This document shows, piece by piece, positions 1,971 to 51,113 of a stretch of 64,000 nucleotides of DNA; positions within the stretch are counted from its first letter, which is position 1; every line of letters begins with the position of its first letter. The notes below the pieces were generated by a model. The model saw only the letters and a program-made list of their open reading frames with translations. It was not told the DNA's origin and searched no databases. The DNA is from Pseudoips prasinana (taxonomy: Eukaryota > Arthropoda > Insecta > Lepidoptera > Nolidae), in the NCBI GenBank assembly GCA_951640165.1, contig OX621266.1, positions 2,914,001 to 2,978,000 on the forward strand. Direction: 5' to 3'. A program made the position numbers and the translations under genes.

Positions 1971-1979
1971 GGTTAGGTT
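1971..1979 (+). repeat. Telomeric repeat junction A0/A1
   Basis: GGTTAGGTT, nearly two units of the insect telomeric repeat, lies between the poly(A) of A0 and the 5' end of A1. It is the expected target remnant for SART-type insertion. Confidence 0.85.
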
Positions 1980-1984
1980 GGGGC

Positions 1985-2091
1985 GGGGAACCACCCCACA
2001 GTGCTTGCGTCCACGTCGCGTTCCCCGGAAACGTCCCAGTTCTGACCACCGTAACGGAGTGGCAGACTGGGTACGGCTAAAGTGCACTGTG
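1985..2091 (+). ncRNA. HDV-like self-cleaving ribozyme candidate, A1
   Basis: All helices of the HDV double-pseudoknot order are present. P1 is GGGGAAC (1985-1991) with GTTCCCC (2020-2026). P2 is CACAGTGC (1997-2004) with GCACTGTG (2084-2091). P3 is GCG (2007-2009) with CGC (2017-2019), directly followed by the 3' strand of P1. L3 (2010-2016) has CC to pair with GG at 2027-2028 as P1.1. P4 is CCCAGTTCTG (2035-2044) with CAGACTGGG (2063-2071) and one bulged U. J4/2 is TACGGCTAAAGT, with the candidate catalytic C at 2077. Cleavage would fall between 1984 and 1985. Such ribozymes are known at 5' ends of R2 and some other non-LTR elements. The fold was made by eye. Confidence 0.8.
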
Positions 2092-2144
2092 CATCGTAGC
2101 GAACTTAAACTGCTTGGAGTGCTACGAATTTTGAATTGCGGATT

Positions 2145-4280
2145 ATGCCGAAACCTGCGCGGGATGCCCTCGGGCATTTCACTAGAAAAGGCCCTTCTCA
2201 GGGCCAACCCAAAGGCCCTTCTCAGGGCCAACCCAAAGGCCCTTCTCAGGGCCAACCCAAAGGCCCTTCTCAGGGCCAACCAAAAGGCCCTTCTCAGGGC
2301 CAACGCGACGCGTCGGCGTCGAACGAAGGCAGGGCCTTCTACGGAGGAAATGTGGACGAATTGTCGGACTCCGACACCGAGTCCATAGTGTCGGATGCCA
2401 GTGCGATGGCGATCGAAGATAGTCGGTCACGCTCGGCATCGAGGAAGAGGACCTTCTTAAAGGTCGTGTCCGATGGCTCCTCGGGCTCAGGCTCGGTGAA
2501 GGAGCCCAAAAAGAGGGTCAAGGCCAAAAAGGCGTTAACAGCAGCAGACACCCACGACGTGGGTTTGGCCAATGCCCAGCGTGAGTTGGACCTGGCACGT
2601 CGGGAGCAGCTCCAGCAAGAGCTGGAGGAGCGGGTTATGGCCAAGGAGGAGCGGGCACGCATCGCTCGTGCCAAGGCCGAGTACGGGGCGTCCCGCGTCC
2701 TATACGCGGACCACTCCCTGGCCGAGCTGGAGAAGATGGCCTTGGAGGACGAAGAGGCGATCGTGGAGGTTGCCGCCAAGTCCTCGCATCTGAAGGGGAC
2801 TTTCCAGAAGTCCCTCAGATGCCGGGCCGCCAGCATGCGTTGCATCATCGCGGAGCTGGTGGACCGCAAGGCCAGCGAAGAAACAAGGCAACTGCAGGCG
2901 AAAGTAGATCGCCTGCAGGCGGAGGTCAGCCAGCTGCACTTAAAGCTGGCTGAAGCCACGGCCCGGCCATCCCAAGCCGAGCCTAGACCTGCGGCAGAGG
3001 GCCTCGCTCCCTCCTCCGGCCTTGAGGAAATCCTCCGCAGGGCTATGGGGGAGCAGAGAGAATTTGTTAGGGCCTGCCTAGCGGGCATAGAGGACCGGCT
3101 CCTGCCGGAGAAACGCCTCCGACCACCGCTTGCGGCGGACAAGAGGCGAGTGGAGCCGGTAGCAACCTCCCAGAGGGAGGACGCCCAACTCCCGTCCACA
3201 ACCCCGACCAACCAGCAGGGCTGGACGAGGGTGGTCGGTAAGGGGAAGGGCAAAGGCAAAAGGACGGCACCTGTCGTCCCTGCCGTCCCCGCCACCACCA
3301 CTCCCAGCCAGTCGCGGCCAGCTGGCAAAGGGAAGGGGAAGGGGAAGAGCACCCCTCCAGCCCCAGCCGTCTCCGCCACCACCCCTGCCGGTCAGTCGTC
3401 GACTGGCAAGGGAAAGGGGAAGGGTTCGCCCCCAGCCGGTGCCAAGAGGAATCTTGTTCCTCCCAAGACCGCGGCCGTCGTGGTGACGCTCACCGCAAAG
3501 GCCGCGGAGCGGGGTGAGACGTACGCGTCCATAATGGTGCGGGCGCGTGCAAATGCCGATCCCACCAAATTGGGGATCGGTAAAGTCTCATGCCGCCGGA
3601 CACAGGCTGGGGCCCGAATCTTTGAGTTCCCGGGTGCCGAGGGCGGGAAGAACGCTGACCTCTTCGCAGCGAAGCTGCAAGAGGTCATTGCGGACGACGC
3701 GAAGGTGGCCAGGCCGGTGAAATCGGCGGCCTTCGAGGTGACGGACCTGGACGACTCCGTCACCAAGGAGGAGGTGGTAGCGGCGGTCGCAGCCATAGGT
3801 GGCTGCGCAGTCGCAGCGGTGCAGGGCGGGGGCATCAGGCCCGGGCGCGGCGGCATGGGCGCAATTCGCCTGGAGTGCCCAGTCGCCGCTGCCAAAGCCG
3901 TCCTCGAGAAGGGACGGCTCGCCGTCGGGTTCAGCTCGGCGGCGGTCCGGGCCCTTGAGGTCCCGCCGCTGAGGTGTTACCGGTGCTTCGGCATCGGTCA
4001 CACCCGGGCCCTCTGTCCGTCCAGTGTCGACAGGACGGACAGCTGCTACCGCTGCGGCAAGGAGGGGCACAAAGCCGCCTCCTGCGAGGCCACCGCACCG
4101 CACTGCGCGGTGTGTGCCGCCAGTGGCCGCCCTGCGGGCCACATTATGAAGGGGAGGAATTGTATTCCTCCCCTTAAGAAGGGCAAAGCGCAGGCGCCGA
4201 CCCGGCCTGTCGCTGCCACCGCCACCCCAGTAGCTGGGACCTCGGCGGCTGTGGAGGAGGAGGGTGTGATGTCCGATTAA
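2145..4280 (+). CDS. ORF1 Gag-like RNA-binding protein, A1
   Basis: A 711-residue protein expected to coat element RNA and carry it to telomeres. The ATG at 2145 is preferred over upstream non-AUG codons because MPK.ARDALGHF is the start shared by all family A copies. Order: five tandem 8-residue KGPSQGQP units (about residues 15-54), an acidic serine-rich and basic stretch, a predicted coiled coil rich in E, R, L and Q (about 140-260), a Lys-Gly and Pro-rich linker with GKGKGKG runs, a conserved AAVVVTL...AERG domain, and three C-terminal zinc knuckles: CX2CX4HX4C twice (near 610 and 632) and CX2CX8HX6C (near 655). The stop overlaps the ORF2 start as TAATG. The GK-rich linker varies in length between copies. 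Confidence 0.92.
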   Translation: MPKPARDALGHFTRKGPSQGQPKGPSQGQPKGPSQGQPKGPSQGQPKGPSQGQRDASASNEGRAFYGGNVDELSDSDTESIVSDASAMAIEDSRSRSASRKRTFLKVVSDGSSGSGSVKEPKKRVKAKKALTAADTHDVGLANAQRELDLARREQLQQELEERVMAKEERARIARAKAEYGASRVLYADHSLAELEKMALEDEEAIVEVAAKSSHLKGTFQKSLRCRAASMRCIIAELVDRKASEETRQLQAKVDRLQAEVSQLHLKLAEATARPSQAEPRPAAEGLAPSSGLEEILRRAMGEQREFVRACLAGIEDRLLPEKRLRPPLAADKRRVEPVATSQREDAQLPSTTPTNQQGWTRVVGKGKGKGKRTAPVVPAVPATTTPSQSRPAGKGKGKGKSTPPAPAVSATTPAGQSSTGKGKGKGSPPAGAKRNLVPPKTAAVVVTLTAKAAERGETYASIMVRARANADPTKLGIGKVSCRRTQAGARIFEFPGAEGGKNADLFAAKLQEVIADDAKVARPVKSAAFEVTDLDDSVTKEEVVAAVAAIGGCAVAAVQGGGIRPGRGGMGAIRLECPVAAAKAVLEKGRLAVGFSSAAVRALEVPPLRCYRCFGIGHTRALCPSSVDRTDSCYRCGKEGHKAASCEATAPHCAVCAASGRPAGHIMKGRNCIPPLKKGKAQAPTRPVAATATPVAGTSAAVEEEGVMSD
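2188..2303 (+). repeat. 24-bp tandem repeat in ORF1 start region, A1 (5 units)
   Basis: Five 24-bp units encode KGPSQGQP. Each unit contains the inverted repeat GGCCCT-TCTC-AGGGCC, so the RNA could form a row of short hairpins. Unit number differs between copies (4 or 5). Confidence 0.9.
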
Positions 4281-7200
4281 TGGGTAGAGTCGGACATCGC
4301 ATCCTCCAGGCGAACACCAACCACTGCAGAGCGGCACAGGATCTGCTGATGCAGACTGTGGCCGAGTGGTTGGTGGACGTGGCGGTGGTCGCCGAGCCGT
4401 ACTCGATACCTGGCCGTTGGCTGGGTGATCGGGACGGCTTGGTGGCGTTGGTGTCGCGGCCTGCCACGGACTCCCCTCCCCTCTCGCTTTTAGAGAGGGG
4501 TCCGGGATACGTGGCCGCCGCGTGGGGAGAAATAGCCCTGGTTGGGGTCTATTTCTCCCCAAACCGCCCTCTAAGGGACTTCGAGGATTTTCTCGAAGTC
4601 CTTACGGCAGTCGTCGGGAGGGCGGCGCCACGTCAGGTCGTCATATTGGGCGACCTGAACGCCAAGGCGGTGGCCTGGGGCAACCCAGCGGTGTCCTGCA
4701 ACGTCCGGGGGCACGCCGTCGAATTTTGGTCGGCTTCGTGCGGCGTGTCCCTCCTGAACAGGGGGGATGTTCACACGTGTGTGCGGCAACGGGGAGGGTC
4801 AGTGGTGGACGTATCGTTCGCCACCCCCGTTCTAGCCGCCCGCGTCGTGAACTGGCGGGTGGAGTTGGTGGAGACCCTGTCGGACCACCGATATGTGCGG
4901 TTCGACATCTCCACCCAGAGCCCGCGGGGGATGGCCCGCTCGGGCCAATCTCCCTTCCCGCGGTGGGCTCTCACCCGCCTGGACCGGGAGGCAGCCCAGG
5001 AGGCTGCGTTCCTCCGGGACTGGCTCTCGCCCCCTGTTGAGGTCACGGACGTGGACGCCGCAGCGGTTCAGCTGCGGGGGTCCCTGACCGAGGTGTGCAA
5101 CTCCAGCATGCCTCGGTCTCGCCGTCCGCCTCCCCGTCGCGCCGTTTATTGGTGGACGGGGGAGCTGGCGGCGCTACGGGCCGCGTGCGTGGAGGCCAGG
5201 AGGGCCTACACGCGGAGTCGGCGGCGCACCAGCCGATGTCAGGCTGAGGAGGACCGCCTCTACGCCTCTTACCTAGAGGCAAAGACGGTCCTCAAGTCGG
5301 AAATGTGCGCCGCCGAGGACTCGGCAAAGGCCGAGATGCTGGAGGGTCTCGACAGGGATCCGTTTGGGAGGCCGTATAAGCAGGCGCGGAGCCAGCTGCG
5401 CCCTTACGGTCCCCCATTAGCGGAGACCCTAGAGCCGGCGTTGCTGGATGGGGTGGTTCGGTCACTGTTTCCGCGCAGGACCGACTTCACCCCACCAACG
5501 ATGAACCCCCCGCTGGGGGGGGTGGTGGCTTCGCCGGAGGAGGAGGTCCCTCCAGTATCGGTGGAGGAATTTCGCGCGGGGGTTCTGTCCCTCCGCGCGA
5601 AGAAGACGGCCCCTGGACCGGATGGTGTCCCCGCACGGGTGGTGGCCATCGCGGCGTCCCTCATGGAGGAGAGGTTTCGGGACCTCTTCAGCGCGTGCCT
5701 GACGGCTGGGAGGTTCCCGAAAATCTGGAAGGAGGGGCAGCTTTGCCTGCTCCGGAAGGAGGGACGCCCGGTGGACTCCCCCTCGGCATACCGGCCCATC
5801 GTTCTGCTCGATGAGGTCGGTAAATTGTTCGAGGGGATCATCGCCACCCGGCTTAATAGCCAGTTGCGGGAGGTAGGGCCAGACCTGTCGGACGCCCAGT
5901 TCGGGTTTCGACAGGGGCGTTCGACGGTCGACGCGGTGGCCCTACTCAGGGGCCAAGTGCAGGAGGCGGTTGGAGCTGGGGACGGAGTGTTGGCGGTGTC
6001 GTTCGACATCGCCAACGCGTTCAACTCCGTGCCCCACTCGACCATATTGGAGGCACTCCGGTACCACGGAGTGCCCCAATATCTGCGGGTGATCCTGGCC
6101 AACTACCTGGAGGACCGGGAGGTCCTCCTGGCGGACAGGACGGCCAGGATCAGGCGCTACGGCGCGGAGTCCGGTGTTCCACAGGGTTCGGTGCTAGGGC
6201 CCCTCTTGTGGAACATCGGATTCGATTGGCTGCTGCGCGGCACCCTCCACCAGGACACGAGTGTCATCTGCTACGCGGATGACACTCTCCTCGTTGCCCG
6301 GGGGAGGGATTTTAGGGAGGCGGCCTGTCTGGCCTCAGCTGGCGGATCCTTAGTGGCAGGTAGGATCCGCCAGCTTGGTTTGAGGGTGGCGCTGAACAAG
6401 ACCGAGGCCGTGTTCTTTCACGGGCCTCGGCAGCGCTGCCCTCCTGATGCCCACATTGTGGTGGAGGGCGTCCGGATAGGGGTCGGGGCCCAGATGAAGT
6501 ATCTGGGCCTCGTGCTGGACAGCAGGTGGCGCTTCGGCCCGCACTTCAGCGGGCTGTCGACGCGCCTGCTGAAAGCCGCGGACGCCCTCTCATGGCTCCT
6601 CCCAAACCTGGGAGGGCCCAAGGAGCGATGCCGGCGCCTCTATGCCGGCATCCTCAAGAGTATGGCCCTGTACGGGGCACCCATCTGGGCGGACTCCCTC
6701 CACAGGAGGGAGAATGCAACCGCCATCCGCAGGCCCCAACGGGCCATTGCACAGCGGGTGGCGAGAGCCTACCGCTCAGTGGGCTTCGCGGCGGCGTGCG
6801 CTCTGGCCGGCACCCCTCCCTGGGAATTGGAGGCATGGGTGCTCGCCAGAGTGTACGAATGGGCGGCGCGGCGTAGGGCGCTGGGTGAGCGCCCCGCCGC
6901 GCAAGAGCGGGATGCCGTGCGGCGGGAGGCGAGGGACGCAATCGTCCTACACTGGACACGGGACCTCGCCTCCGCCACATTTGGACGCCGGACGCTGGAC
7001 GCGCTCGGTCCAGTCCTGCGGGACTGGCTCGAGCGCCCCCACGGTTTCCTCTCTTTCCGTCTGGTGCAGGTGTTGTCCGGGCATGGCTGCTTCGGAACGC
7101 ACCTGCATCGGATCCAGAGGGAGGAAACCCCGGCGTGCCACGACTGTGGAGCCGCGGAGGACACGGCGCAGCACACCCTCGAGGTGTGCCCAGCCTGGGC

Positions 7201-7450
7201 TGAGCTGCGCCGTGCCCTGACAGATGTGGTCGGAATGGACCTCTCACTTCCCAGTGTGGTGAACTCCATGCTGGGGAGTGAGGAGGCTTGGGCGGCGGTT
7301 GCCTCCTTTTGCGAGAATGTCATGTCGCAAAAGGAGGCGGCGGAGCGTGCGCGGGAGGATGATCCTCTCGCGCCGCCGCTCCGCAGGCGAAGAAGGGGTG
7401 GGAGACGGCGGTTGTACGATCGTCGCCTCCCTCCTTCTGGTGGTGATTAG
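4280..7450 (+). CDS. ORF2 endonuclease-reverse transcriptase, A1
   Basis: A 1,056-residue protein beginning at the ATG of TAATG. An N-terminal APE-type endonuclease carries QANTNHC (10-16), AEPY (38-41), GDLNAK (124-129) and SDHRYVRF (201-208); it should nick the telomeric repeat. The reverse transcriptase follows with AYRPIVLLDEVGKLFE, QFGFRQGRST, motif A FDIANAF (near 575), GVPQGSVLGPLLWN and YADD (665-668). After the thumb comes HGCFGTHLHRI and a CX2CX8HX4C zinc motif (about 950-967), then an Arg-rich tail ending SGGD. Length fits R1-clade ORF2 proteins. No stop or frameshift and all catalytic residues are present, so this is one of the better candidates for an active copy. Confidence 0.94.
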   Translation: MGRVGHRILQANTNHCRAAQDLLMQTVAEWLVDVAVVAEPYSIPGRWLGDRDGLVALVSRPATDSPPLSLLERGPGYVAAAWGEIALVGVYFSPNRPLRDFEDFLEVLTAVVGRAAPRQVVILGDLNAKAVAWGNPAVSCNVRGHAVEFWSASCGVSLLNRGDVHTCVRQRGGSVVDVSFATPVLAARVVNWRVELVETLSDHRYVRFDISTQSPRGMARSGQSPFPRWALTRLDREAAQEAAFLRDWLSPPVEVTDVDAAAVQLRGSLTEVCNSSMPRSRRPPPRRAVYWWTGELAALRAACVEARRAYTRSRRRTSRCQAEEDRLYASYLEAKTVLKSEMCAAEDSAKAEMLEGLDRDPFGRPYKQARSQLRPYGPPLAETLEPALLDGVVRSLFPRRTDFTPPTMNPPLGGVVASPEEEVPPVSVEEFRAGVLSLRAKKTAPGPDGVPARVVAIAASLMEERFRDLFSACLTAGRFPKIWKEGQLCLLRKEGRPVDSPSAYRPIVLLDEVGKLFEGIIATRLNSQLREVGPDLSDAQFGFRQGRSTVDAVALLRGQVQEAVGAGDGVLAVSFDIANAFNSVPHSTILEALRYHGVPQYLRVILANYLEDREVLLADRTARIRRYGAESGVPQGSVLGPLLWNIGFDWLLRGTLHQDTSVICYADDTLLVARGRDFREAACLASAGGSLVAGRIRQLGLRVALNKTEAVFFHGPRQRCPPDAHIVVEGVRIGVGAQMKYLGLVLDSRWRFGPHFSGLSTRLLKAADALSWLLPNLGGPKERCRRLYAGILKSMALYGAPIWADSLHRRENATAIRRPQRAIAQRVARAYRSVGFAAACALAGTPPWELEAWVLARVYEWAARRRALGERPAAQERDAVRREARDAIVLHWTRDLASATFGRRTLDALGPVLRDWLERPHGFLSFRLVQVLSGHGCFGTHLHRIQREETPACHDCGAAEDTAQHTLEVCPAWAELRRALTDVVGMDLSLPSVVNSMLGSEEAWAAVASFCENVMSQKEAAERAREDDPLAPPLRRRRRGGRRRLYDRRLPPSGGD

Positions 7451-7742: not shown

Positions 7743-7800
7743 ATGCGTAACGCATTTTTTTCCCAGCGCAAACAAAAAAAAAAAAAAAAAAAAAAAAAAA

Positions 7801-7809: not shown

Positions 7810-7979
7810 GGGGCACGTGGTCGGAAAACCTCCTCGTGGTCCGAGGCTTCTGGTCCCATTCGAATATTTATATTCGGTGGGAACGGAAGTTTTTCGGATT
7901 GGTGTGCCCTGGGCATGGGCGCTGGTTTTTTCCTATGCATGCATGGGGATAAGCCACCGTCCGTGGCGAATATTCCGAC
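7810..7979 (+). ncRNA. HDV-like ribozyme candidate with enlarged L3, B1
   Basis: P1 is GGGGCAC (7810-7816) with GTGCCCT (7904-7910), opening with a G.U wobble as in HDV itself. P2 is GTCGGAA (7820-7826) with TTCCGAC (7973-7979). P3 is ACC (7828-7830) with GGT (7901-7903), immediately before the P1 3' strand. P4 is GGGCGCTGG (7917-7925) with CCACCGTCC (7954-7962), one mismatch. J4/2 is GTGGCGAATA, containing GGCGAAT as in genomic HDV. L3 is about 70 nt and contains extra hairpins. Predicted cleavage is exactly at the telomere/element boundary. Manual fold only. Confidence 0.68.
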
Positions 7980-13373: not shown

Positions 13374-13388
13374 GGTTAGGTTAGGTTA
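13374..13388 (+). repeat. Telomeric repeat junction B1/A2
   Basis: GGTTAGGTTAGGTTA, three units, then CCTC and the A2 ribozyme start at 13393. Confidence 0.85.
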
Positions 13389-13392
13389 CCTC

Positions 13393-13499
13393 GGGGAACC
13401 ACCCCACAGTGCTTACGTCCTCGTCGTGTTCCCTGGAAACGTCCCAGTTCTGACCACCGTAACGGAGTGGCAGACTGGGTACGGCTAAAGTGCACTGTG
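13393..13499 (+). ncRNA. HDV-like ribozyme candidate, A2
   Basis: Same 107-nt layout as A1. P3 is ACG/CGT instead of GCG/CGC, so a G-C pair became A-T(U) with pairing kept. The P1 3' strand is GTTCCCT, giving a first-pair G.U wobble. P2, P4 and J4/2 are unchanged. Confidence 0.78.
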
Positions 13500-13545: not shown

Positions 13546-15684
13546 ATGCCTAAAATGCATAAACCTGCGCGGGATGCCCTCGGGCATTTCGTGAAACAAG
13601 GCCCTTCTCAGGGCCAACCCAAAGGCCCTTCTCAGGGCCAACCAAAAGGCCCTTCTCAGGGCCAACCAAAAGGCCCTTTTCAGGGCCAACACGACGCGTC
13701 GGCGTCGGAAGGTAGAGCCTTCTACGGAGGGAGAGCGGGAGATATGTCGGACTCCGACATTGAGTCAATTGCGTCGGATGGTGATTCGATGGCGCTCGAT
13801 GTTTGTCGATCGCGATCGGCATCGAGGAAGCGGACCTTCCTCAAGGTTGTGTCCGATGGGTCCTCGGGCTCAGGCTCGGCGAAGGAGCCTAAAAAGCGGG
13901 TCAAGGCCAAGAAGTTGGCAATTACAGCAGATACCCACGACGTGGGTTTGGCAGACGCCCAGCGGGAGTTGGACCTGGCTCAGCGGGAGCGGCTCCAACA
14001 AGACCTGGAGGAGCAGGTAGCGGCCAGGGAGGAACGGGCGCGCGCCGCCCGTGCCAAATCAGGATACGGAGCGTCCCGCGTTCTGTACGCGGACCACTCC
14101 CTTGCCGAACTGGAGCGGATGGCATTGGAGGACGAGGAGGTAATCGTCCAGGTCACCACCAAGTCCTCCCACCTAAAAGGGACTTTTCAAAAGTCCCTCA
14201 AATGCCGGGCCGCCAGCATGCGCGGCATCGTCGCGGAGCTGGTCAACCGCAAGGCCAGCGACGAATCGCGGCAACTGCAGGCGAAAGTGGATCGCCTGCA
14301 GTTGGAGGTCAGCCAGCTGCATTTAAAGCTGGCTGAAGCCACGGCCCGGCCATCGCAAGCCGAGCCCAGGCCTGCGGCAGAGGGCCTCGCTCCGTCCTCT
14401 GGCCTTGAGGAAATCCTCCGCAGGGCTATGGGGGAGCAGAGGGATTTTGTGAGGGCCTGCTTAGCGGGCATCGAGGACCGGTTACTGCCGGAGAAACGCC
14501 TCCGACCGCCACTTGCGGCGGACAAGAGGCGACAGGAGCCGGTGCCTACCTCCCAGACGGAGGACGCCCTTCTACCTTCGACCACCCCGACCAGCCAGCA
14601 GGGCTGGACGAAGGTGGTCGGTAAGGGAAAGGGCAAGGGCAAAAGGACGGCAGCAGTCGCCCCTGCCGTCCCCGCCACCACCACTCCCAGCCAGTCGCAG
14701 CCGACTGGCAAAGGGAAGGGGAAAGGCAAAGGGACGGGGAAGAGCACCCCCCCAGCCCCAGCCGTCTCCGCCACCACCCCTGCCGGTCAGTCGCAGTCGG
14801 CCGACAAGGGAAAGGGACAGGGCAAGAGTTCCGCCCCAGCCGGTGTCAGGAGGAACTTAGTTCCTCCCAAGACCGCGGCCGTCGTGGTGACGCTCACCGC
14901 AGAGGCCGCGGAGCGGGGTGAGACGTACGCGTCCATGTTGGTGCGGGCGCGTGCCACTGCCGATCCCACCAAACTGGGGATCGGCAAAGTCTCATGCCGC
15001 AAGACCCAGGCTGGGGCTCGAATTTTTGAGTTCCCTGGTGCGGAGGGCGGCAAAAACGCGGACCTCTTTGCAGCTAAGCTGAAAGAGGTCATCGCAGACT
15101 CGGCGAAGGTGGCGAGGCCGGTGAAGTCGGCGGCCATCGAGGTGACGGATCTGGACGACTCCGTCACCAAGGAGGAGGTGGTGGCAGCAATCGCAGCCAT
15201 AGGGGGCTGCGAAGTCGCAGCGGTACAGGGCGGGGGCATCAGGCCCGGGCGTGGCGGCATGGGCACCATTCGCCTGGAGTGCCCAGTCGCCGCTGCCAAA
15301 GCCGTCCTCGAGAAGGGACGGCTCGCCGTCGGGTTCAGCTCGGCGGCGGTCCGGGCCCTTGAGGACCAGCCTCTGCGGTGTTACCGGTGCTTCGGCATCG
15401 GTCACACCCGAGCCCTCTGTCCGTCCAGCATTGACAGGACGGGCAGTTGCTACCGCTGCGGCAAGGAGGGGCACAAGGCCGCCTCCTGCGAGGCCGCCGC
15501 ACCGCACTGTGCGGTGTGTGCCGCCAGTGGCCGCCCTGCGGGCCACATTATGAAGGGGAGGAATTGTATTCCTCCCCTTAAGAAGGGCAAAACTCAGGCG
15601 CCGACCCGGCCTGTCGCTGCCACCGCCACCCCAGTAGCTGGGACTTCGGCGGCTGTGGAGGAGGGGGGTGCGATGACCGACTAA
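13546..15684 (+). CDS. ORF1 Gag-like RNA-binding protein, A2
   Basis: 712 residues starting MPKMHKPARDALGHF; the extra MH and K come from a local insertion near the ATG. Four KGPSQGQP-type units instead of five, the last reading KGPFQGQH. The GK-rich linker is longer than in A1 and includes GKGTGKS and ADKGKGQGKS. The coiled coil and the three zinc knuckles (CYRCFGIGHTRALC, CYRCGKEGHKAASC and the CX2CX8HX6C motif) are intact. The stop codon overlaps the ORF2 start as TAATG. This copy probably encodes a competent ORF1 protein even though its own ORF2 is damaged. Confidence 0.92.
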   Translation: MPKMHKPARDALGHFVKQGPSQGQPKGPSQGQPKGPSQGQPKGPFQGQHDASASEGRAFYGGRAGDMSDSDIESIASDGDSMALDVCRSRSASRKRTFLKVVSDGSSGSGSAKEPKKRVKAKKLAITADTHDVGLADAQRELDLAQRERLQQDLEEQVAAREERARAARAKSGYGASRVLYADHSLAELERMALEDEEVIVQVTTKSSHLKGTFQKSLKCRAASMRGIVAELVNRKASDESRQLQAKVDRLQLEVSQLHLKLAEATARPSQAEPRPAAEGLAPSSGLEEILRRAMGEQRDFVRACLAGIEDRLLPEKRLRPPLAADKRRQEPVPTSQTEDALLPSTTPTSQQGWTKVVGKGKGKGKRTAAVAPAVPATTTPSQSQPTGKGKGKGKGTGKSTPPAPAVSATTPAGQSQSADKGKGQGKSSAPAGVRRNLVPPKTAAVVVTLTAEAAERGETYASMLVRARATADPTKLGIGKVSCRKTQAGARIFEFPGAEGGKNADLFAAKLKEVIADSAKVARPVKSAAIEVTDLDDSVTKEEVVAAIAAIGGCEVAAVQGGGIRPGRGGMGTIRLECPVAAAKAVLEKGRLAVGFSSAAVRALEDQPLRCYRCFGIGHTRALCPSSIDRTGSCYRCGKEGHKAASCEAAAPHCAVCAASGRPAGHIMKGRNCIPPLKKGKTQAPTRPVAATATPVAGTSAAVEEGGAMTD
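13598..13690 (+). repeat. 24-bp tandem repeat in ORF1, A2 (4 units)
   Basis: Four hairpin-forming units; the last has loop TTTC instead of TCTC, keeping the GGCCCT/AGGGCC arms. Confidence 0.88.
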
Positions 15685-19157: not shown

Positions 19158-19167
19158 GGTTAGGTTA
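19158..19167 (+). repeat. Telomeric repeat junction A2/A3
   Basis: GGTTAGGTTA followed by CCTCGGGGA and then the A3 ribozyme start at 19177. Confidence 0.8.
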
Positions 19168-19176
19168 CCTCGGGGA

Positions 19177-19283
19177 GGGGAACCACCCCACAGTGCTTGC
19201 GTCCACGTCGCGTTCCCCGGAAACGTCCCAGTTCTGACCACCGTAACGGAGTGGCAGACTGGGAACGGCTAAAGTGCACTGTG
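19177..19283 (+). ncRNA. HDV-like ribozyme candidate, A3
   Basis: Same 107-nt fold as A1: P1 GGGGAAC/GTTCCCC, P2 CACAGTGC/GCACTGTG, P3 GCG/CGC. The only notable change is in the base before J4/2, which reads AACGGCTAAAG. Confidence 0.78.
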
Positions 19284-19330: not shown

Positions 19331-21419
19331 ATGCCTAAACCTGCGCGGGATGCCCTCGGGCATTTTGTCAAAAAAGGCCCTTCTCAGGGCCAACCCAAAG
19401 GCCCTTCTCAGGGCCAACCCAAAGGCCCTTCTCAGGGCCAACCAAAAGGCCCTTCTCAGGGCCAACGCGACGTATCAGCGTCGGATGAAGGCAGGTCCTT
19501 CTATGGCGGGAGAGTGGACTCGGACTCGGACTCTGACAATGAGTCCATTGCGTCGGATGCGATGGCGATCGAGGCTTCTCGGTCAAGGTCGGCATCGAGA
19601 AAGCGGACGTTCTTAAAAGTCAGTTCTGATGGGTCTTCAGCCTCGGGTTCGGCGAAGGAGCCCAAAAAGAAAGTGAAGGCCAAGAAGCCGGCAATAGTGG
19701 CGGACACCCACGAGGTGGGTTTGGCAGACGCCCAGCGCGAGCTGGACCTAACCAGGCGGGAGCAGCTCCAGCAAGAGCTGGAGGAGCGGGTTGCGCGTCG
19801 CCCGTGCCAAGTCCGGGTACGGGGCGTCCCGCGTCCTGTACGCGGACCACTCCCTGGCCGAACTCCAGAGGATGGCCTTGGAGGACGAGGAGGCGATCGT
19901 GGAGGTCGCCGCCAAGTCCTCGCATTTGAAGGGGACTTTCCAGAAGTCCCTCAAATGCCGGGCCGCCAGCATGCGCGGCATCGTCGCGGAGCTGGTGGAC
20001 CGCAAGGCCAGCGACGAAACGCGGCAACTGCAGGCGAAAGTAGATCGCCTGCAGTCAGAGGTCAGCCAGCTGCACTTGAAGCTGGCTGAAGCCACGGCCC
20101 AGCCATCCCAGGCCGAGCCCAGGCATGCGGAAGAGAGCCTCGCTCCCTCCTCCGGCCTTGAGGATATCCTCCGCAAGGTTATGGCGGAGGAGCGGGCTTT
20201 TGTGAGAGCCTGCCTAGCGGGCATCGAGGACCGGCTCCTTCCGGAGAAACGCCTCCGACCACCACTTGCAGCGGACAAGAGGCGAGAGCCGGTGCCCACC
20301 TCTCAGAGGGAGGACGCCCTTCTCCCTTCCACGACCCCGACCAACCAGCAGGGCTGGACGAAGGTGGTCGGTAAGGGCAAGGGAAAGGGAAAAAGGACGG
20401 CAGCTGTCGTCCCTGCCGTTCCCGCCACCACCACTCCCAGCCAGTCGCGGCCAGCTGGCAAAGGGAAAGGGAAGGGGAAGGGGAAGAGCACCCCTCCAGC
20501 CCCAGCCGTCTCCGCCACCACCCCTGCCGGTCAGTCGTCGACTGGCAAGGGAAAGGGGAAGGGTTCGCCCCCAGCCGGTGCCAAGAGGAACCTAGTTCCT
20601 CCCAAAACCGCGGCCGTCGTGGTGACGCTCACCGCAGAGGCCGCGGAGCGGGGTGAGACGTACGCGTCCATGTTGGTGCGGGCGCGTGCCACTGCCGATC
20701 CCACCAAACTGGGGATCGGCAAAGTCTCATGCCGCAAGACACAGGCTGGGGCTCGAATTTTCGAGTTCCCGGGTGCCGAGGGCGCGAAAAACGCAGACCT
20801 CTTTGCAGCGAAGCTGCAGGAGGTCATTGCGGATGCGGCGAAGGTGGCGAGGCCGGTGAAGTCGGCGGCCATTGAGGTGGCTGATCTTGACGATTCAGTC
20901 ACCAAAGAGGAGGTGGTGGCAGCGATCGCAGCCATAGGTGGCTGCGCAGTCGCAGCGGTGCAGGGCGGGGGCATCAGGCCCGGGCGCGGCGGCATGGGCA
21001 CCATTCGCCTAGAGTGCCCAGTCGCCGCTGCCAAAGCCGTCCTCGAAAAGGGACGGCTCGCCGTCGGGTTCAGCTCGGGTGCGGTCCGGGCACTTGAGGA
21101 CCAGCCTTTGAGGTGCTACAAGTGCTTCGGAATCGGCCACACCCGAGCCCTCTGTCCGTCCAGTGTCGACAGGACGGACAGCTGCTACCGCTGCGGCAAG
21201 GAGGGGCACAAAGCCGCCTCCTGCAAGGCCGCCGCACCGCGCTGCGCGGTATGTGCCGCTAGTGGCCGCCCTGCGGGACATATTATGAAGGGGAGGAACT
21301 GCAGTCCTCCCCTTAAGAAGGGCAAAACTCAGGCGCCGACCCGGCCTGTCGCTGCCACCGCCACCCCAGTAGCTGGGACCTCGGCGGCTATGGAGGAGAG
21401 GGGTGTGATGTCCGATTAA
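19331..21419 (+). pseudogene. ORF1 with frameshift, A3
   Basis: ATG at 19331 as in A4. It has four KGPSQGQP units (19374-19464), an acidic serine-rich region and the start of the coiled coil, then a deletion at about 19793-19797. Compared with other copies some 20 bases are missing where GGAGGAGCGGG is repeated, so repeat-mediated slippage is likely. The frame shifts there: translation would run on in the wrong frame to a stop near 20089, whereas the rest of ORF1, with coiled coil, GK linker and all three zinc knuckles, is open in the other frame to the TAA at 21417-21419. Because ORF2 is coupled to the ORF1 stop through TAATG, ORF2 expression from this copy should also fall. Confidence 0.88.
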
Positions 21420-24950: not shown

Positions 24951-25057
24951 GGGGAACCACCCCACAGTGCTTACGTCCTCGTCGTGTTCCCTGGAAACGT
25001 CCCAGTTCTGACCACCGTAACGGAGTGGCAGACTGGGTACGGCTAAAGTGCACTGTG
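24951..25057 (+). ncRNA. HDV-like ribozyme candidate, A4
   Basis: 107 nt; carries the A2-type variants P3 ACG/CGT and P1 3' strand GTTCCCT. It begins at the first base after the telomeric repeat. Confidence 0.78.
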
Positions 25058-25104: not shown

Positions 25105-27237
25105 ATGCCTAAACTTGCGCGGGATGCCCTCGGGCATTTTGTCAAAAAAGGCCCTTCTCAGGGCCAACCCAAAGGCCCTTCTCAGGGCCAACCCAAAGGC
25201 CCTTCTCAGGGCCAACCCAAAGGCCCTTCTCAGGGCCAACCAAAAGGCCCTTCTCAGGGCCAACGCGACGCATCAGCGTCGGAGGAAGGCAGGGCCTTCT
25301 ACGGCGGGAGGGCGATCGATTTGTCAGACTCCGAAATTGAGTCCATTGAATCGGACGCCGATTCGATGGCGGAAGTGGATTCGCGGTCGCGATCCACTTC
25401 CAGAAAGCGGAAGACCTTTTTGAAGGAGGGGTCGGATGGCTCCTCGGCCTCGGGTTCTGCAAAGAAGAAGGTGAAGGCCAAGAGGCCGACAGTAGCGGGA
25501 GATACCCATGATGTGGGTTTGGTCGACGCCCAGCGGCAGCTGGACCTGGCTCAGCGGGAGCGGCTCCAACAAGACCTGGAGGAGCAGGTAGCGGCCAGGG
25601 AGGAACGGGCGCGCGCCGCCCGTGCCAAATCGGGATACGGAGCGTCCCGCGTTCTGTACGCGGACCACTCCCTGGCCGAGCTGGAGCGGATGGCATTGGA
25701 GGACGAGGAGGTAATCGTCCAGGTCGCCACCAAGTCCTCCCACCTAAAAGGGACTTTTCAAAAGTCCCTTAAATGCCGGGCCGCCAGCATGCGCGGCATC
25801 GTCGCGGAGCTGGTCGACCGCAAGGCCAGCGACGAGTCACGGCAACTGCAGGCGAAGGTGGATCGCCTGCAGACGGAGGTGAGCCAGCTTCACCTGAAGC
25901 TGGCTGAAGCCACGGCCCGTCCATCCCAAGCCGAGACCCAACCTGCGGCAGAAAGCCTTGTTTCCTCTCCCGGTCTCGAGGATGTCCTCCGCAAGGTGAT
26001 GGCGGAGGAGAGGGCATTTGTTCGGGCCTGCCTAGCGGGCATTGAGGACCGGCTCTTACCGGCGAAGACCCTCCGACCGCCGCTTGCAGCGGACAAGAGG
26101 CGAGAGGAGCCGGTGCCTGCCTCTCAGAGGGAGGACGCCCTTCTGCCTTCCACCACCCCGACCAACCAGCAGGGCTGGACGAAGGTGGTCGGTAAGGGGA
26201 AGGGCAAAGGCAAAAGGACGGCACCTGTTGTCACTGCCGTTCCCACCACCACTCCCGGCCAGTCGCAGCCGACTGGCAAAGGAAAAGGGAAGGGGAAGGG
26301 GAAGAGCACCCCCCCAGCCCCAGCCGTCTCCGCCACCACCTCTGCCGGTCAGTCGTCGACTGGCAAGGGAAAGGGGAAGGGTTCGCCCCCAGCCGGTGCC
26401 AAGAGGAACCTGGTTCCTCCAAAGACTGCGGCCGTCGTGGTGACACTTACCACGAAGGCCGCGGAGCGGGGTGAGACGTACGCGTCCATGTTGGTGCGGG
26501 CGCGTGCCACTGCCGATCCCACCAAACTGGGGATCGGCAAAGTCTCATGCCGCCGGACCCAGGCTGGGGCCCGAATCTTTGAGTTCCCGGGAGCGGAAGG
26601 CAGTAAGAACGCGGACCTCTTCGCAGCGAAGCTGCAGGAGGTCATCGCGGACGTGGCGAAGGTGGCCAGGCCGGTGAAGTCGGCGGCCATCGAGGTGACG
26701 GATCTGGACGACTCCGTCACCAAGGAGGAGGTGGTTGCAGCAATCGCAGCCATAGGGGGCTGCGAAGTCGCAGCGGTGCAGGGCGGGGGCATCAGGCCCG
26801 GGCGCGGCGGCATGGGCACGATTCGCCTGGAGTGCCCAGTTGCCGCTGCCAAAGCCGTCCTCGAGAAGGGACGGCTCGCCGTCGGGTTCAGCTCGGCGGC
26901 GGTCCGGGCCCTTGAGGACCAGCCTCTGCGGTGTTACCGGTGCTTCGGCATCGGTCACACCCGAGCCCTCTGTCCGTCCAGCATTGACAGGACGGACAGC
27001 TGCTACCGCTGCGGCAAGGAGGGGCACAAAGCCGCCTCCTGCAAGGCCGCCGCACCGCACTGCGCGGTATGCGCCGCCAGTGGCCGCCCAGCGGGCCACA
27101 TTATGAAGGGGAGGAATTGCAGTCCTCCCCTTAAGAAGGGCAAGGAACAGGCGCCGACCCGGCCTGTCGCCGCCACCGCCGTCCCAGTGCCTGGGACCTC
27201 GGCGGCCGTGGAGGAGAGGGGTGCGATGTCCGATTAA
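25105..27237 (+). CDS. ORF1 Gag-like RNA-binding protein, A4
   Basis: 710 residues starting MPKLARDALGHF. Five KGPSQGQP units. The segment after the repeats differs more than usual from other copies (IDLSDSEIESIESDADSMAE) and lacks a few residues in the following basic stretch (SAKKKVKAKR). The coiled coil resembles A2 (AQRERLQQDLEEQVAAREERAR), so this gene looks like a mosaic of A3-like and A2-like sequence. The GK linker and three zinc knuckles are intact and the stop forms TAATG. Confidence 0.92.
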   Translation: MPKLARDALGHFVKKGPSQGQPKGPSQGQPKGPSQGQPKGPSQGQPKGPSQGQRDASASEEGRAFYGGRAIDLSDSEIESIESDADSMAEVDSRSRSTSRKRKTFLKEGSDGSSASGSAKKKVKAKRPTVAGDTHDVGLVDAQRQLDLAQRERLQQDLEEQVAAREERARAARAKSGYGASRVLYADHSLAELERMALEDEEVIVQVATKSSHLKGTFQKSLKCRAASMRGIVAELVDRKASDESRQLQAKVDRLQTEVSQLHLKLAEATARPSQAETQPAAESLVSSPGLEDVLRKVMAEERAFVRACLAGIEDRLLPAKTLRPPLAADKRREEPVPASQREDALLPSTTPTNQQGWTKVVGKGKGKGKRTAPVVTAVPTTTPGQSQPTGKGKGKGKGKSTPPAPAVSATTSAGQSSTGKGKGKGSPPAGAKRNLVPPKTAAVVVTLTTKAAERGETYASMLVRARATADPTKLGIGKVSCRRTQAGARIFEFPGAEGSKNADLFAAKLQEVIADVAKVARPVKSAAIEVTDLDDSVTKEEVVAAIAAIGGCEVAAVQGGGIRPGRGGMGTIRLECPVAAAKAVLEKGRLAVGFSSAAVRALEDQPLRCYRCFGIGHTRALCPSSIDRTDSCYRCGKEGHKAASCKAAAPHCAVCAASGRPAGHIMKGRNCSPPLKKGKEQAPTRPVAATAVPVPGTSAAVEERGAMSD
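25148..25263 (+). repeat. 24-bp tandem repeat in ORF1, A4 (5 units)
   Basis: Five units with the GGCCCT-TCTC-AGGGCC inverted repeat in each. Confidence 0.88.
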
Positions 27238-30760: not shown

Positions 30761-30762
<2 letters not shown>

Positions 30763-30765
30763 TTA
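30761..30765 (+). repeat. Telomeric repeat junction A4/C1
   Basis: A single unit GGTTA, then CCTCGGGCT, then the C1 ribozyme start at 30775. This is the shortest telomeric remnant in the array together with C1/C2. Confidence 0.6.
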
Positions 30766-30774
30766 CCTCGGGCT

Positions 30775-30944
30775 GGGGCACGTGGTCGGAAAACCTCCTC
30801 GTGTGTCCGAGACTAGTGGTCCCATTCGAATATTTATATTCGGTGGGAACAGAAGTTTTCGGATCGGTGTGCCCCGGGCGTGGGCGCTGGTTTTTTCCTA
30901 TGCTTGCATGGGGAGAAACCACCGTCCGTGGCCAATATTCCGAC
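30775..30944 (+). ncRNA. HDV-like ribozyme candidate with enlarged L3, C1
   Basis: Same 170-nt layout as B1: P1 GGGGCAC/GTGCCCC (30869-30875, perfect where B1 has G.U), P2 GTCGGAA/TTCCGAC (30938-30944), P3 ACC/GGT. J4/2 reads GTGGCCAATA, so the base after the candidate catalytic C is C instead of G. Ten bases upstream (ACCTCGGGCT) separate it from GGTT. Confidence 0.65.
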
Positions 30945-36951: not shown

Positions 36952-36956
36952 GGTTA
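36952..36956 (+). repeat. Telomeric repeat junction C1/C2
   Basis: One unit GGTTA; the final TA also fits the TAC codon where the C2 fragment starts, so the boundary is blurred by microhomology. Confidence 0.55.
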
Positions 36957-37854
36957 CCTCGGGCTGACGCTGGACAGTAGGTGGGCTTTTGACGCCCACT
37001 TTGTCCAGCTGGTCCCCCGACTTCGCGGAGCGGCGGGCGCTCTCCAGCGTCTGCTGCCCAACCTCGGGGGACCCCGGGAAGAAGTCCGCCGCCTCTACTG
37101 TGGGGTTATCCGGTCTATGGCCCTCTACGGTGCTCCCGTCTGGTCGTCTAGACTGGCGAGAGCTTCCCGCTGCAAAGCTCTTTTGAATAGCGTGCAGCGG
37201 GTGGTTGCCATCAGAGTGGTCCGTGGATACCGGACGATCTCCTTCGAGGCGGCGACTTTACTAGGACGATTCCCGCCACTGGACATCCTGGCGGACATGG
37301 ACGCGAGAGTTTACGATCTCGTCCGTGCCCGCTCGGATGCCGGGGGCCAGCAACCGGACTGGACAAACGTGCGGCGGGACGCGCACCGACAGGCCTTAGA
37401 GATTTGGCGCGAGCGGCTTGAATTGCCGAGAGGCTTGCGTCAACGCTCTGTCGGTGCGGTCCTGCCGTGGTTTGACGCATGGCTGCTCCGGAAACGGGGC
37501 AGCCTAACCTTTAGGTTGACACAGATACTCACCGGACACGGGTGTTTCGGTGAGTACCTGTGTCGAATAGGTAGAGAGGCGACACCGTCGTGTCACCATT
37601 GTGGCGGCGGCCCGGACTCGGCCCAACATACACTCGAGGAGTGCCCAGTTTGGGCCCCCGAGAGGCGAGTCCTGGTCGCTGAAATAGGATTGGACCTCTC
37701 GCTGCCAGCAGTGGTTTCGGCTATGCTGGCGGCGACAACCGGATGGAACGCGGTGGCCTCCTTCTGTGAAGCTGTTATGCTCAAGAAGGAGGCCGCCGAA
37801 CGCGAGAGGGAGCGCAACGATCCCTCCCGTAGGAGAACGAGACGGCGCCGATGA
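36955..37854 (+). pseudogene. ORF2 C-terminal fragment, C2
   Basis: 300 codons colinear, without gaps, with C1 35564-36463. It keeps part of the thumb, the HGCFGEYLCRI block and the CHHC...H...C zinc motif, but lacks the endonuclease and the reverse transcriptase active site, so it cannot act as a polymerase. It differs from C1 by only scattered substitutions (for example SLPAVVSAM for SLPSVVLAM), so the truncated copy is recent or homogenised. Confidence 0.9.
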
Positions 37855-38309: not shown

Positions 38310-38311
<2 letters not shown>

Positions 38312-38340
38312 TTAGGTTAGGTTGGGGGGGGGGGGGGGGG
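38310..38340 (+). repeat. Telomeric junction C2/A5 with G17 run
   Basis: GGTTAGGTTAGGTT (38310-38323) followed by 17 consecutive G (38324-38340), then the truncated A5 sequence. The G run is not part of any family A ORF2 and is unique to this junction. Confidence 0.8.
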
Positions 38341-38341
38341 A

Positions 38342-38959: not shown

Positions 38960-39066
38960 GGGGAACCACCCCACAGTGCTTGCGTCCACGTCGCGTTCCC
39001 CGGAAACGTCCCAGTCCTGACCACCGTAACGGAGTGGCAGGCTGGGTACGGCTAAAGTGCACTGTG
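38960..39066 (+). ncRNA. HDV-like ribozyme candidate with compensatory change, A6
   Basis: 107 nt as in A1. In P4, T2041 and A2066 of A1 are C39016 and G39041 here, so a U-A pair became C-G. P1, P2, P3 and J4/2 match A1. It begins exactly after GGTTAGGTT. Confidence 0.8.
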
Positions 39067-39116: not shown

Positions 39117-39636
39117 ATGCCAAAACCCGCGCGGGATGCCCTCGGGCATTTCATCAGAAAAGGCCCTTCTCTGGGCCAACCCAAAGGCCCTTCTCAGGGC
39201 CAACCCAAAGGCCCTTCTCAGGGCCAACCCAAAGGCCCTTCTCAGGGCCAACCAAAAGGCCCTTCTCAGGGCCAACGCGACGCATCAGCGTCGAGTGAAG
39301 GCAGAGCCTTCTACGGCGGGAGTGTGGGCGACATGTCGGACTCCGACATAGAGTCCATAGCATCGGATGCGGGTTCGATGGTGGTCGATCCTCGATCACG
39401 ATCGGCATCGCGGAAGCGGACCTTCCTCAAGGTCGTGTCCGATGGCTCCTCGGGCTCAGGCTCGGCGAAGGAGCCTAAAAAGAGGGTCAAGGCCAAAAAG
39501 GCGTTGACAGCAGGAGGCACCCACGACGTGGGTTTGGCCGACGCCCAGCGCGAGCTGGACCTGGCCCGGCGGGAGCAGCTCCAGCAAGAGCTGGAGGAGC
39601 GGGTCGCGGCCAAAGAGGAGCGGGCGCGCGTCGCTC
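39117..39636 (+). pseudogene. ORF1 N-terminal fragment, A6
   Basis: Starts MPKPARDALGHF with five KGPSQGQP-type units (first reads KGPSLGQP; 39160-39275), the acidic serine-rich region and the first coiled-coil turns up to KEERARVA. The junction with unrelated DNA follows at 39637. Zinc knuckles and the rest of ORF1 are absent. Confidence 0.9.
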
Positions 39637-39983
39637 ATCCCCCTCTTGGATTCCGCGCAGGTCGGACGTATCGTTGTGATAATTTATTTTCATTTATTTT
39701 AAATAATTGGAGTGAAAATATACGTAATTTAATCAAGCAACTACCAGGCGACCATAAGTGGATACGATCGCTACGCGTTGGTGATACCGCACGGCTTGAG
39801 TGAGTGTGACAACAGTAATTAACAAATATATTTTTACCTGCTCCACGCAATCTGCGGCGCAAGCGCACCGCCTTTCACTTATCGCATTCATTGCATACAA
39901 GGAAGCTCTGCATTAGGGCGGGGTTAACATAACCTTTGGACCAACCGGACTTCCGAACACACCCACTTCTAATCGGAAAAAAT

Positions 39984-40925
39984 ATGTCTGTTGCTAAGTC
40001 TGCCCCGTCAGGAAATAATAAATTACCTCCCCCGTCCAATCTTCATGCGGCGCTTTCCGATCCGGCCTTGAGCGGGCAGTCGAAGTGCGATCAAATAAAA
40101 GATACCTTTGTCAACTTGGGCCGTAGAACACGGCGAAGACTCGACGCAGATTCCTATGAACAAAGCGATTCAGATAGTTTACCGATTTTAGACGAAATAA
40201 ATAAACTTTTTACAGATTTTGAGTCGAAACAAAATCGGAAATTTGATGATCTTAAATCTAAAATAGATGACGTATTGATTCAAAACTCAAAGATTCAGGA
40301 TTCTATAACTTTTTTTGCCCAAAAGTATGACGAACTGTTGAACCGTCTCAGTGTAACTGAACAAGAAAACTCCACTCTTAAGAGGCAGATAAGCTCGTTA
40401 GAACTTAAAATAGATTATTTAGAACGTAGTGCTCGTGCTTCTATGATTGAAATAAATAACCTCCCTTTAAGTGTGCCTGAAACTAAGGAATCACTAAGCC
40501 AGAACTTGTGCAAGATCGGAACTACTATATGTGAACCTATACAGTTAACCGACATCAAAAATATATACAGAATGAAGGCAAAAAAAGATTCCCTTTCTTT
40601 TGGTACTGTTGTGGCTGAATTTCACTCATCCGCACTTAAAGAAAATGTGTTGAAGGCGACAAGAATATTTAATAAACGAAACGGTAATTCTAAATTATCG
40701 ACCGCCAGTATTGAATTGCCGGGCCTGCCGAAACCTATCTACATTGCCGAGTCGTTGACCTCATATGCGAAACACCTTTACTATCTTGGCCGAAAACTAC
40801 AGAAAGAAGGAAAGTGTGACAGCTGCTGGCCGAACCATGGCGTGATTTTTATAAAAAAGGTTGCCGGTTCGATCCCGTTTCGTATAAATTCTGAAGCTGA
40901 CATCCACAAAATTGTATCGATGTGA
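39984..40925 (+). CDS. LINE ORF1: coiled coil plus FP-like C-terminal domain
   Basis: 313 residues from the ATG at 39984 (AAAAAATATG context); an in-frame TTG at 39936 is less likely. A Pro/Ser-rich N-terminus is followed by a heptad-rich coiled coil (about residues 62-150, LDEINKLFTDFESKQ through LELKIDYLERSAR), then MIEINNLP and a C-terminal region with PIYIAESLTSYAKHLYYLGR and GVIFIKKVAGS that resembles the FP-type domain of many insect LINE ORF1 proteins. No zinc knuckles. Likely an RNA-binding trimeric chaperone for the downstream ORF2 RNA. No stop codon or frameshift is seen. Confidence 0.82.
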   Translation: MSVAKSAPSGNNKLPPPSNLHAALSDPALSGQSKCDQIKDTFVNLGRRTRRRLDADSYEQSDSDSLPILDEINKLFTDFESKQNRKFDDLKSKIDDVLIQNSKIQDSITFFAQKYDELLNRLSVTEQENSTLKRQISSLELKIDYLERSARASMIEINNLPLSVPETKESLSQNLCKIGTTICEPIQLTDIKNIYRMKAKKDSLSFGTVVAEFHSSALKENVLKATRIFNKRNGNSKLSTASIELPGLPKPIYIAESLTSYAKHLYYLGRKLQKEGKCDSCWPNHGVIFIKKVAGSIPFRINSEADIHKIVSM

Positions 40926-41220
40926 CTAGGCAGGTTGCATGTACTCCTACTTATTTTATATTATTCTAATTTTTTTGCTAATATTTCTGTAATTCTTGTA
41001 TCACACACACATTTTACACAACACTACTCACTTTTAAACGTACTCATCGACTTCCCTCAGTATTCCTGCAAATTACTAGTACTGGTATTTTTTTATCTAC
41101 TCTGCATTACTATAACATCTCAGCACAACAAATACAGCTGTGTTATATACATTGCCCTATCTGTGATATATTTCTATTCTAATCTTGACTTCACCTTAAT
41201 GAGAAACTCAATAAAATATA

Positions 41221-44196: not shown

Positions 44197-44202
44197 ATAC
44201 CT

Positions 44203-44207
<5 letters not shown>

Positions 44208-44250
<43 letters not shown>

Positions 44251-44254
44251 GACA

Positions 44255-44305
<51 letters not shown>
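44208..44305 (+). repeat. (CA)n microsatellite in LINE 3' UTR
   Basis: About 100 bp of CA dinucleotides with a few interruptions (AAAC, GACAGAC), directly downstream of the LINE ORF2 stop. Confidence 0.95.
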
Positions 44306-50155: not shown

Positions 50156-50369
50156 TGGATAAAATTGAATTTTTATACCATTATGACTAAATTCATAAGC
50201 TTCTTGAAAGATTTAAATGGAAATTTGTAGAATACATTTGTTTATAGTATGATTAATTACAAGCAACATTGTGTAGATATAAATTGTTGGTTACTTAAAT
50301 GACTGCTATGATATTTTATGTATCGATAAATACAGGATAGAATAAAGATTCTTGACCAGTTTTGTTAGT

Positions 50370-51113
50370 GGGCGTACTATGTGACTTCGCTGGTTACTCG
50401 AGTGAGTAGGTGTCTCACCGGATGTTGAGCGGGTCGCTAGTCGTCGGATAATGTTTGTTAAAGGGCGTACTATGTGACTTCGCTGGTTAATTGAGTGAGT
50501 AGGTATCTCACTGGATGTTGAGCGGGTCGCTCGTCGTCGGATAATGTTTGTTAAAGGGCGTACTATGTGACTTCGCTGGTTAATTGAGTGAGTAGGTATC
50601 TCACTGGATGTTGAGCGGGTCGCTAGTCGTCGGATAATGTTTGTTAAAGGGCGTACTATGTGACTTCGCTGGTTAATTGAGTGAGTAGGTATCTCACTGG
50701 ATGTTGATCGGGTCGCTAGTCGTCGGATAATGTTTGTTAAAGGGCGTACTATGTGACTTCGCTGGTTAATTGAGTGAGTAGGTATCTCACTGGATGTTGA
50801 GCGGGTCGCTAGTCGTCGGATAATGTTTGTTAAAGGGCGTACTATGTGACTTCGCTGGTTAATTGAGTGAGTAGGTATCTCACTGGATGTTGAGCGGGTC
50901 ACTAGTCGTCGGATAATGTTAGTTTGGAAGCGTACTATGTGCCTTCGTTGGTTAATTGAGTGAGTAGGTATCTCACTGGATGATGGACGGGTTAATAGTC
51001 ATCGGATAAAGTTATTTTGGAAGCGTACTATGTGCCTTCGCTGGTTAATTGAGTGGGTAAGTATCTCACTGGATGATGAGCGGGTTGCTTGTCGTCGGAT
51101 AAAATTATTTAGT
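50370..51113 (+). repeat. 93-bp tandem repeat, about 8 copies
   Basis: Unit starts at 50370, 50463, 50556, 50649, 50742, 50835, 50928 and 51021, with a degenerate ninth at 51114. Core GGCGTACTATGTGACTTCGC...GTCGTCGGATAATGTTTG. The middle copies are nearly identical; the last three are diverged. Because 93 is divisible by three, the minus strand has a 198-codon open frame of 31-residue repeats, which I treat as a by-product. Confidence 0.92.

Follow-up and report, generated by a model that had tools for sequence, protein, structure and literature searches.

A predicted HDV-like ribozyme at the 5' end of SART-like telomeric retrotransposons in Pseudoips prasinana

The first 107 bases of five retrotransposon copies in a 64,000-nucleotide stretch of the Pseudoips prasinana genome (1.13 Gb; the whole stretch is hereafter called the window) form a predicted HDV-like ribozyme, which would cut read-through RNA before the first G and likely release an RNA beginning at the element start. 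We put the probability of this reading, which is drawn from sequence, at roughly 0.9; it rests on the pairings, the letters of the active site, the paired changes, the drop in conservation where P2 ends and the exact 5' borders of 23 of the 40 copies scored. It supports the proposal of an earlier first-pass annotation of this DNA that a ribozyme trims read-through RNA and fixes the element 5' end, with cleavage standing as a prediction.

Results

The 107-base domain holds all helices of the fold in HDV order, as first proposed, in each of five plus-strand copies of one family (family A): A1 (1985..2091), A2 (13393..13499), A3 (19177..19283), A4 (24951..25057) and A6 (38960..39066). It comprises a P1 of 7 bp, a P2 of 8 bp, a P3 of 3 bp, two P1.1 pairs and a long P4, and the 3' strand of P3 directly abuts that of P1. 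In A1, on the plus strand, descriptor and pair counts place P1 at 1985-1991/2020-2026, P2 at 1997-2004/2084-2091, P3 at 2007-2009/2017-2019 around loop L3 (2010-2016), P1.1 between CC 2011-2012 and GG 2027-2028, and P4 at 2032-2075. J4/2 reads GGCUAA and includes the catalytic C2077, again as claimed for it; the predicted cut is at 1984/1985. Within L3, a U and a G five apart are invariant in both of our alignments (family A; families B, C and D, below) and are predicted to form a trans GU pair; pairing of a U and a G of L3 is described as a signature of HDV ribozymes (PMC3386971).

The minimum-energy fold of A1, from a program that cannot form pseudoknots, recovered P2, P3 and P4 as nested helices but replaced P1 by a local GGGG/CCCC hairpin; its energy was mildly below that of shuffled sequences (z = -2.2, with 6 of 200 shuffles as good). 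A3 departs from A1 by a single T to A change at 19264, an unpaired P4 position. The two paired changes reported in the first-pass annotation were confirmed, namely P3 G-C to A-U in A2 and A4 (A2 also has a closing G-U in P1) and P4 U-A to C-G at 2041/2066 in A6. An alternative P4 register with U2040 paired to A2066 fits worse than 2041/2066 and was rejected.

The host elements look like SART elements, with insertion at TT^AGG. The A1 element encodes ORF1 (2145..4280, plus strand), which has a CCHC zinc knuckle and whose ATG lies 160 nt downstream from the predicted 5' end, and ORF2 (4280..7450, plus strand), which has an APE-type endonuclease and a reverse transcriptase; the ORF1 stop and the start of ORF2 overlap as TAATG (4278-4282). 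In SART1, ORF1 and ORF2 are coupled by UAAUG. The poly(A) tail of A1 (7774..7800, plus strand) is joined to GGTTAGGTT of the telomeric repeat, and a plus-strand spacer made of the same GGTTAGGTT with an extra GGGGC (1971..1984) lies between the poly(A) of the previous element and the A1 ribozyme. More generally, poly(A) tails are joined to GGTTA of the telomeric repeat, so that the junctions read as TT^AGG insertions with poly(A) joined to AGG, and the same target and join are described for SART1 of Bombyx (PMC7265360). Named protein relatives among the matches listed were mostly lepidopteran, with ant, bee and one bacterial entry besides, and no match named SART1 occurred among the best 120 of 171. 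Viral contigs yielded a single partial match of 62 residues, which was set aside. We also considered TTAGGTTGGGG as a variant telomere repeat, with Hymenoptera in mind, and dropped it, the longer telomeric runs being TTAGG and the GGGG being the element start.

Several other features of these elements and their surroundings were recorded. Tandem repeats of 24 bp, each with a GGCCCTTCTCAGGGCC hairpin, lie at the start of ORF1 in about 4 to 5 units per copy (window 2187-2304, 13598-13690, 19373-19466, 25147-25264 and 39159-39276). The variable stretch after the ribozyme (window 2092-2140, and elsewhere in family A) may form a stem with paired changes in some copies: across 64 copies it reads UCGUAG/CUACGA in 15, UCGUUG/CAACGA in 7 and UCGUAA/UUACGA in 2, and in the other 40 the best partner is another 6-mer, mismatched in 19. 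The A6 element breaks off within ORF1 (window ~39640-44300), and the ORFs after the break (39936-40925 and 41221-44196) read like another non-LTR element. A 93-bp tandem repeat occupies 50361-51102 in eight copies with 93% matches. On the 9.3-Mb contig that holds the window (C32), element junctions are scattered on both strands and not only at the ends; this contig is perhaps a W chromosome.

The first-pass annotation had proposed that the ribozyme fixes the 5' end of the element; the predicted cleavage site coincides with that end often, not always. A4 and A6 do start exactly at the boundary between GGTTAGGTT and GGGG, as it stated; extra bases separate telomere and element in A1 (GGGGC), A2 (ACCTC, the copy starting after ...GGTTACCTC) and A3 (ACCTCGGGGA, directly before the copy). 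Of 1085 candidate copies elsewhere we scored 40, which share an identical ribozyme and all come from contigs C1-C3; 37 of these lie within ~202 kb of a contig end, and the tail faces that end in 37 of 37. The exact border, TTAGGTT followed at once by GGGG, was found in 23 of the 40, and the 17 inexact borders had an extra GGGGA (eight copies) or other bases (nine). A run of at least 6 A joined to a telomeric repeat of at most 49 bases stood ahead of 33 of the 40, and in 15 of these 33 exactly GGTTAGGTT separated the poly(A) run from the element.

Three further observations concern 5' starts. GGTTACCTCGGG, or part of it, lies between poly(A) and start in four different elements (window 13374-13392, 19158-19176, 30761-30774 and 36952-36965). 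Some 5'-truncated copies still begin with GGTT-GGGG followed by further bases, as if the G's were added whatever the truncation point (L045, L063, L064, L072, L073, L082, L086, L090, L108, L109 and window 38310-38341); apart from L045 and the window copy, all of these were selected with a pattern requiring GGGG. L057, a minus-strand family B copy, opens with three head-to-tail copies of its first 19 bases, which resembles stuttering in synthesis of the 5' end.

Three sister families have related 5' ends (starting GGGGCAC in family B, GGGGTGC in C and GGCGTGC in D) and the same predicted HDV-like fold; C was first met in an unselected 10-kb stretch and D in another. B, C and D share P2, P3 and L3, and are thus one related group beside A. 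Most of their copies were picked by a pattern demanding GGTTAGGTT, so exact borders among them are not independent evidence. Alignment, pair counts and a generalised descriptor support a family B ribozyme, additional to the copies of the first-pass annotation, at 7810..7979 on the plus strand, again at an exact GGTTAGGTT boundary, with P1 at 7810-7816/7904-7910 (alignment and pair counts), P2 GTCGGAA/TTCCGAC, P3 ACC/GGT, the GG of P1.1 at 7911-7912, P4 and the catalytic C7967. Its L3 consists of UCCUCG followed by an inserted 64-nt hairpin (7837..7900, plus strand; -31.9 kcal/mol, z = -6.55). A second plus-strand family B ribozyme, at 30775..30944, follows GGTTACCTCGGGCT and carries the same hairpin (30802-30865). 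Families B and D alike retain UCCUCG, with its signature U and G, ahead of an insert that precedes the closing of P3 and measures 64 bases in 18 of 20 sequences and 65 in the other two; family C has one base there. For three examples the insert hairpin scored z = -5.1 to -6.6 (the D piece included two P3 bases), and two of the four pairs of its outer stem show a two-sided change between B and D.

The sister families provided the stronger test of conserved pairing. For 10 distinct family A sequences, 99.2% of alignment cells were paired, as against 31-52% when the partners were slid, and 3 of 36 pairs showed a two-sided change, the two from the first-pass annotation among them. Neither this number of pairs (at least 3 in 70 of 500 shuffles) nor the number of pair types (4 vs. 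4.6 in shuffles) exceeds what shuffles give; the number of two-sided cells does exceed shuffles, none of 500 reaching it. The second alignment, made by MAFFT without structure, took in 28 of the 30 distinct sequences listed for families B, C and D (all but L094 and L102 of family B; the broken B copy L091 and the internal repeat in L057 had been excluded earlier). Over its 55 pairs, 97.4% of cells were paired vs. 30-45% with slid partners, a count in which the HDV plan sets the helices and in which P4 length and the L3 insert stems are favoured because they were taken from the counted sequences. Two-sided changes occurred in 17 of the 55 pairs, vs. 0-5 with slid partners and a mean of 10.3 in shuffles (0 of 500 reach 17), including 3 of 7 pairs in P1 and 10 of 14 in P4; pair types were again not above shuffles (32 vs. 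35.3). P2 and P3 are invariant within B, C and D, and P2 differs between this group and family A. Loss of P2 or P4 pairing in more distant members, which the first-pass annotation had named as evidence against a ribozyme, was not seen in these sister families.

The domain is also set off by its conservation. Across 26 family A copies the mean pairwise difference per site, with gaps scored as differences, was 0.024 within the domain (bases 1-107). Over the following 53 bases (108-160) it was about 15 times higher, at 0.358 (0.194 in 108-120 and 0.411 in 121-160), and variability rises where P2 ends. The catalytic position is C in all 26, and it is invariant in the 28 B, C and D sequences. The window, 10-kb stretches and loci chosen by their junctions supplied these 26 copies. 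They were recognised by their first 20 bases (at most 5 mismatches) and a 13-base core (at most 3), so that the comparison is subject to selection at these 33 positions.

Conservation and a fixed 5' end would likewise be expected if this region served chiefly as an internal Pol II promoter, with a DPE and a start at +1, the RNA fold being secondary or unused. A DPE is described in the core promoters of SART1 and TRAS1 of Bombyx (PMC4748587) and could set the 5' end; L1Tc has CGTG at +25 to +28 (PMC4748587), and families B and C have the same letters at +26 to +29 (CGTT in B sequence L076). However, the motif differs in family A (CGTC at +30) and in family D (CGCG), and a promoter would leave unexplained the two-sided changes in P1 and P4, the drop in conservation after base 107 and the invariant C of J4/2, all of which makes a mainly promoter-based reading very unlikely. 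The two functions are not exclusive, since L1Tc is reported to hold both a DPE and a ribozyme within the same 77 bases (PMC4748587). The CGTG of families B and C (e.g., window 7835-7838), a DPE motif published for promoters of insect non-LTR elements, coincides with ribozyme loop L3, so both functions may share letters here.

The same counts bear on whether the fold is a degenerate one, HDV-like and non-cleaving, that is simply carried along in young, near-identical copies. Family A copies are indeed very similar, and two show damage (a broken P1 in L058, a P4 mismatch in L111), but passive carriage fits poorly with a following stretch of 53 bases that varies some 15 times more per site in the 26 copies, and with sister families that retain the fold despite changes in P1 and P4; we hold it to be less probable still.

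The covariance-model search proposed in the first-pass annotation gave a divided answer. The Rfam HDV model (RF00094) did not match family A at the settings tried, nor the 3 B and D loci given, and it did match all four family C loci given (of 8), end to end and starting at the junction, with the same architecture, at 37.8-39.9 bits (E 0.0058-0.014), below the gathering cut-off of 50 bits. Two unrelated sub-threshold matches in the same search (mir-3389 and a histone stem-loop) had lower E-values, so the family C E-values prove little alone and the weight falls on the position of the matches and on their being four out of four. Among our own models, a family C structure from RNAalifold (R1) lacked the HDV fold because this program cannot write pseudoknots, and it was replaced by a P1/P3/P4 model (R2). 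On the window, R2 recovered both B copies as fragments around their L3 insert (E 2.4e-6 to 0.035) but could not tell the A copies from noise (E 1.3 at 13393 and 24951, 6.5 at 1985 and 19177; 38960 not listed).

Searching both strands of the window with a descriptor of the HDV fold gave five matches, which are the five A copies, and none elsewhere; 200 dinucleotide shuffles of the 64 kb gave a mean of 0.05 matches and a maximum of 1, with no shuffle match having a P2 of at least 8 bp, these shuffles being for a descriptor widened after the structure had been seen. A first, tighter descriptor had found nothing in the window, known copies included, because the spacing it allowed between P4 and J4/2 was too short (one chance match in 50 shuffles). 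A generalised descriptor, written after the families were known, gave seven matches (5 A, 2 B) and none in 200 shuffles. Chance pairing in a GC-rich element is extremely improbable: although P1 with the following GG alone arises in 1-6% of shuffles of each family's sequence, a shuffled window yields 0 or 1 descriptor matches vs. 5 and never a P2 of 8 bp, and the Rfam HDV model matches family C at the junction.

Discussion

HDV-like ribozymes of SART elements have already been published, so the class is not new: telomere-specific SART stands on a published list of elements with HDV ribozymes (PMC11620745, citing Ruminski 2011). Our elements resemble those by description, in the TT^AGG target, the poly(A) joined to AGG, an ORF2 with endonuclease and reverse transcriptase, and the same ribozyme class at the 5' end; the present genome supplies the four families, the hairpin in L3 and the counts of junctions. 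For SART1Bm of Bombyx mori, the word ribozyme is absent from the main text of one report (PMC7265360). In Rfam terms, the family C loci given come near the HDV model, with scores under 50, and those of A, B and D were not matched.

A wider comparison is offered by R2, which also has an HDV-like ribozyme at the 5' end of a non-LTR element. R2 ribozymes are described as cutting either at the 5' junction or upstream in 28S, and species cutting at the 5' end have variable 5' junctions (PMC3774820), as do the elements studied here. Unlike these, R2 occupies 28S rDNA, and its cut falls upstream, within 28S, in many species (PMC3774820). The L1Tc/ingi Pr77 sequence is similar in that one short 5' sequence combines a CGTG promoter element near +25 with an HDV-like ribozyme (PMC4748587); unlike ours, L1Tc is a trypanosomatid element, and is not described in that report as inserting into telomeric repeats (PMC4748587).

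The L3 arrangement in sister families B and D is possibly new. Size variation among R2 ribozymes is described for J1/2, L4 and P4, and in one jewel wasp for the spacing of the conserved L3 bases rather than for a hairpin after them (PMC3774820), and mosquito ribozymes are described with a structured J1/2 (PMC4908430). Among the papers listed in a search of titles and abstracts, with the SART ribozyme paper outside the comparison, none described an L3 insertion in HDV-like ribozymes.

Taken as a mechanism, the ribozyme reading would run as follows. Transcription probably reads through from upstream of the element, since 33 of the 40 scored copies sit as if behind another element's tail. The ribozyme would then cut this RNA before the first G and so fix the 5' end of the element RNA. 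Target-primed reverse transcription into TT^AGG could then use this RNA as its template. The same device is predicted for families B, C and D, in B and D with a hairpin in L3. It is tempting to speculate further that, in head-to-tail arrays, one cut does double duty, setting the downstream element's 5' end together with the 3' end of the upstream element's RNA, which would finish as poly(A)-GGUUAGGUU, a telomere-matching tag able to pair with the nicked target and guide reinsertion, and that the L3 hairpin of B and D gates the cut. We regard this extension as doubtful; if true, it would divide one read-through transcript into RNAs of unit length that are addressed to the telomere.

The predicted ribozyme ties the 5' ends of telomeric retrotransposons to a self-cutting RNA, and this genome allows comparison across numerous similar copies and junctions and across four ribozyme families. 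Two questions can thereby be put to the test: whether these elements owe their 5' end to the ribozyme, to a promoter or to both, and whether an HDV-type ribozyme may hold a 64-base hairpin in its catalytic loop L3 without its activity being abolished.
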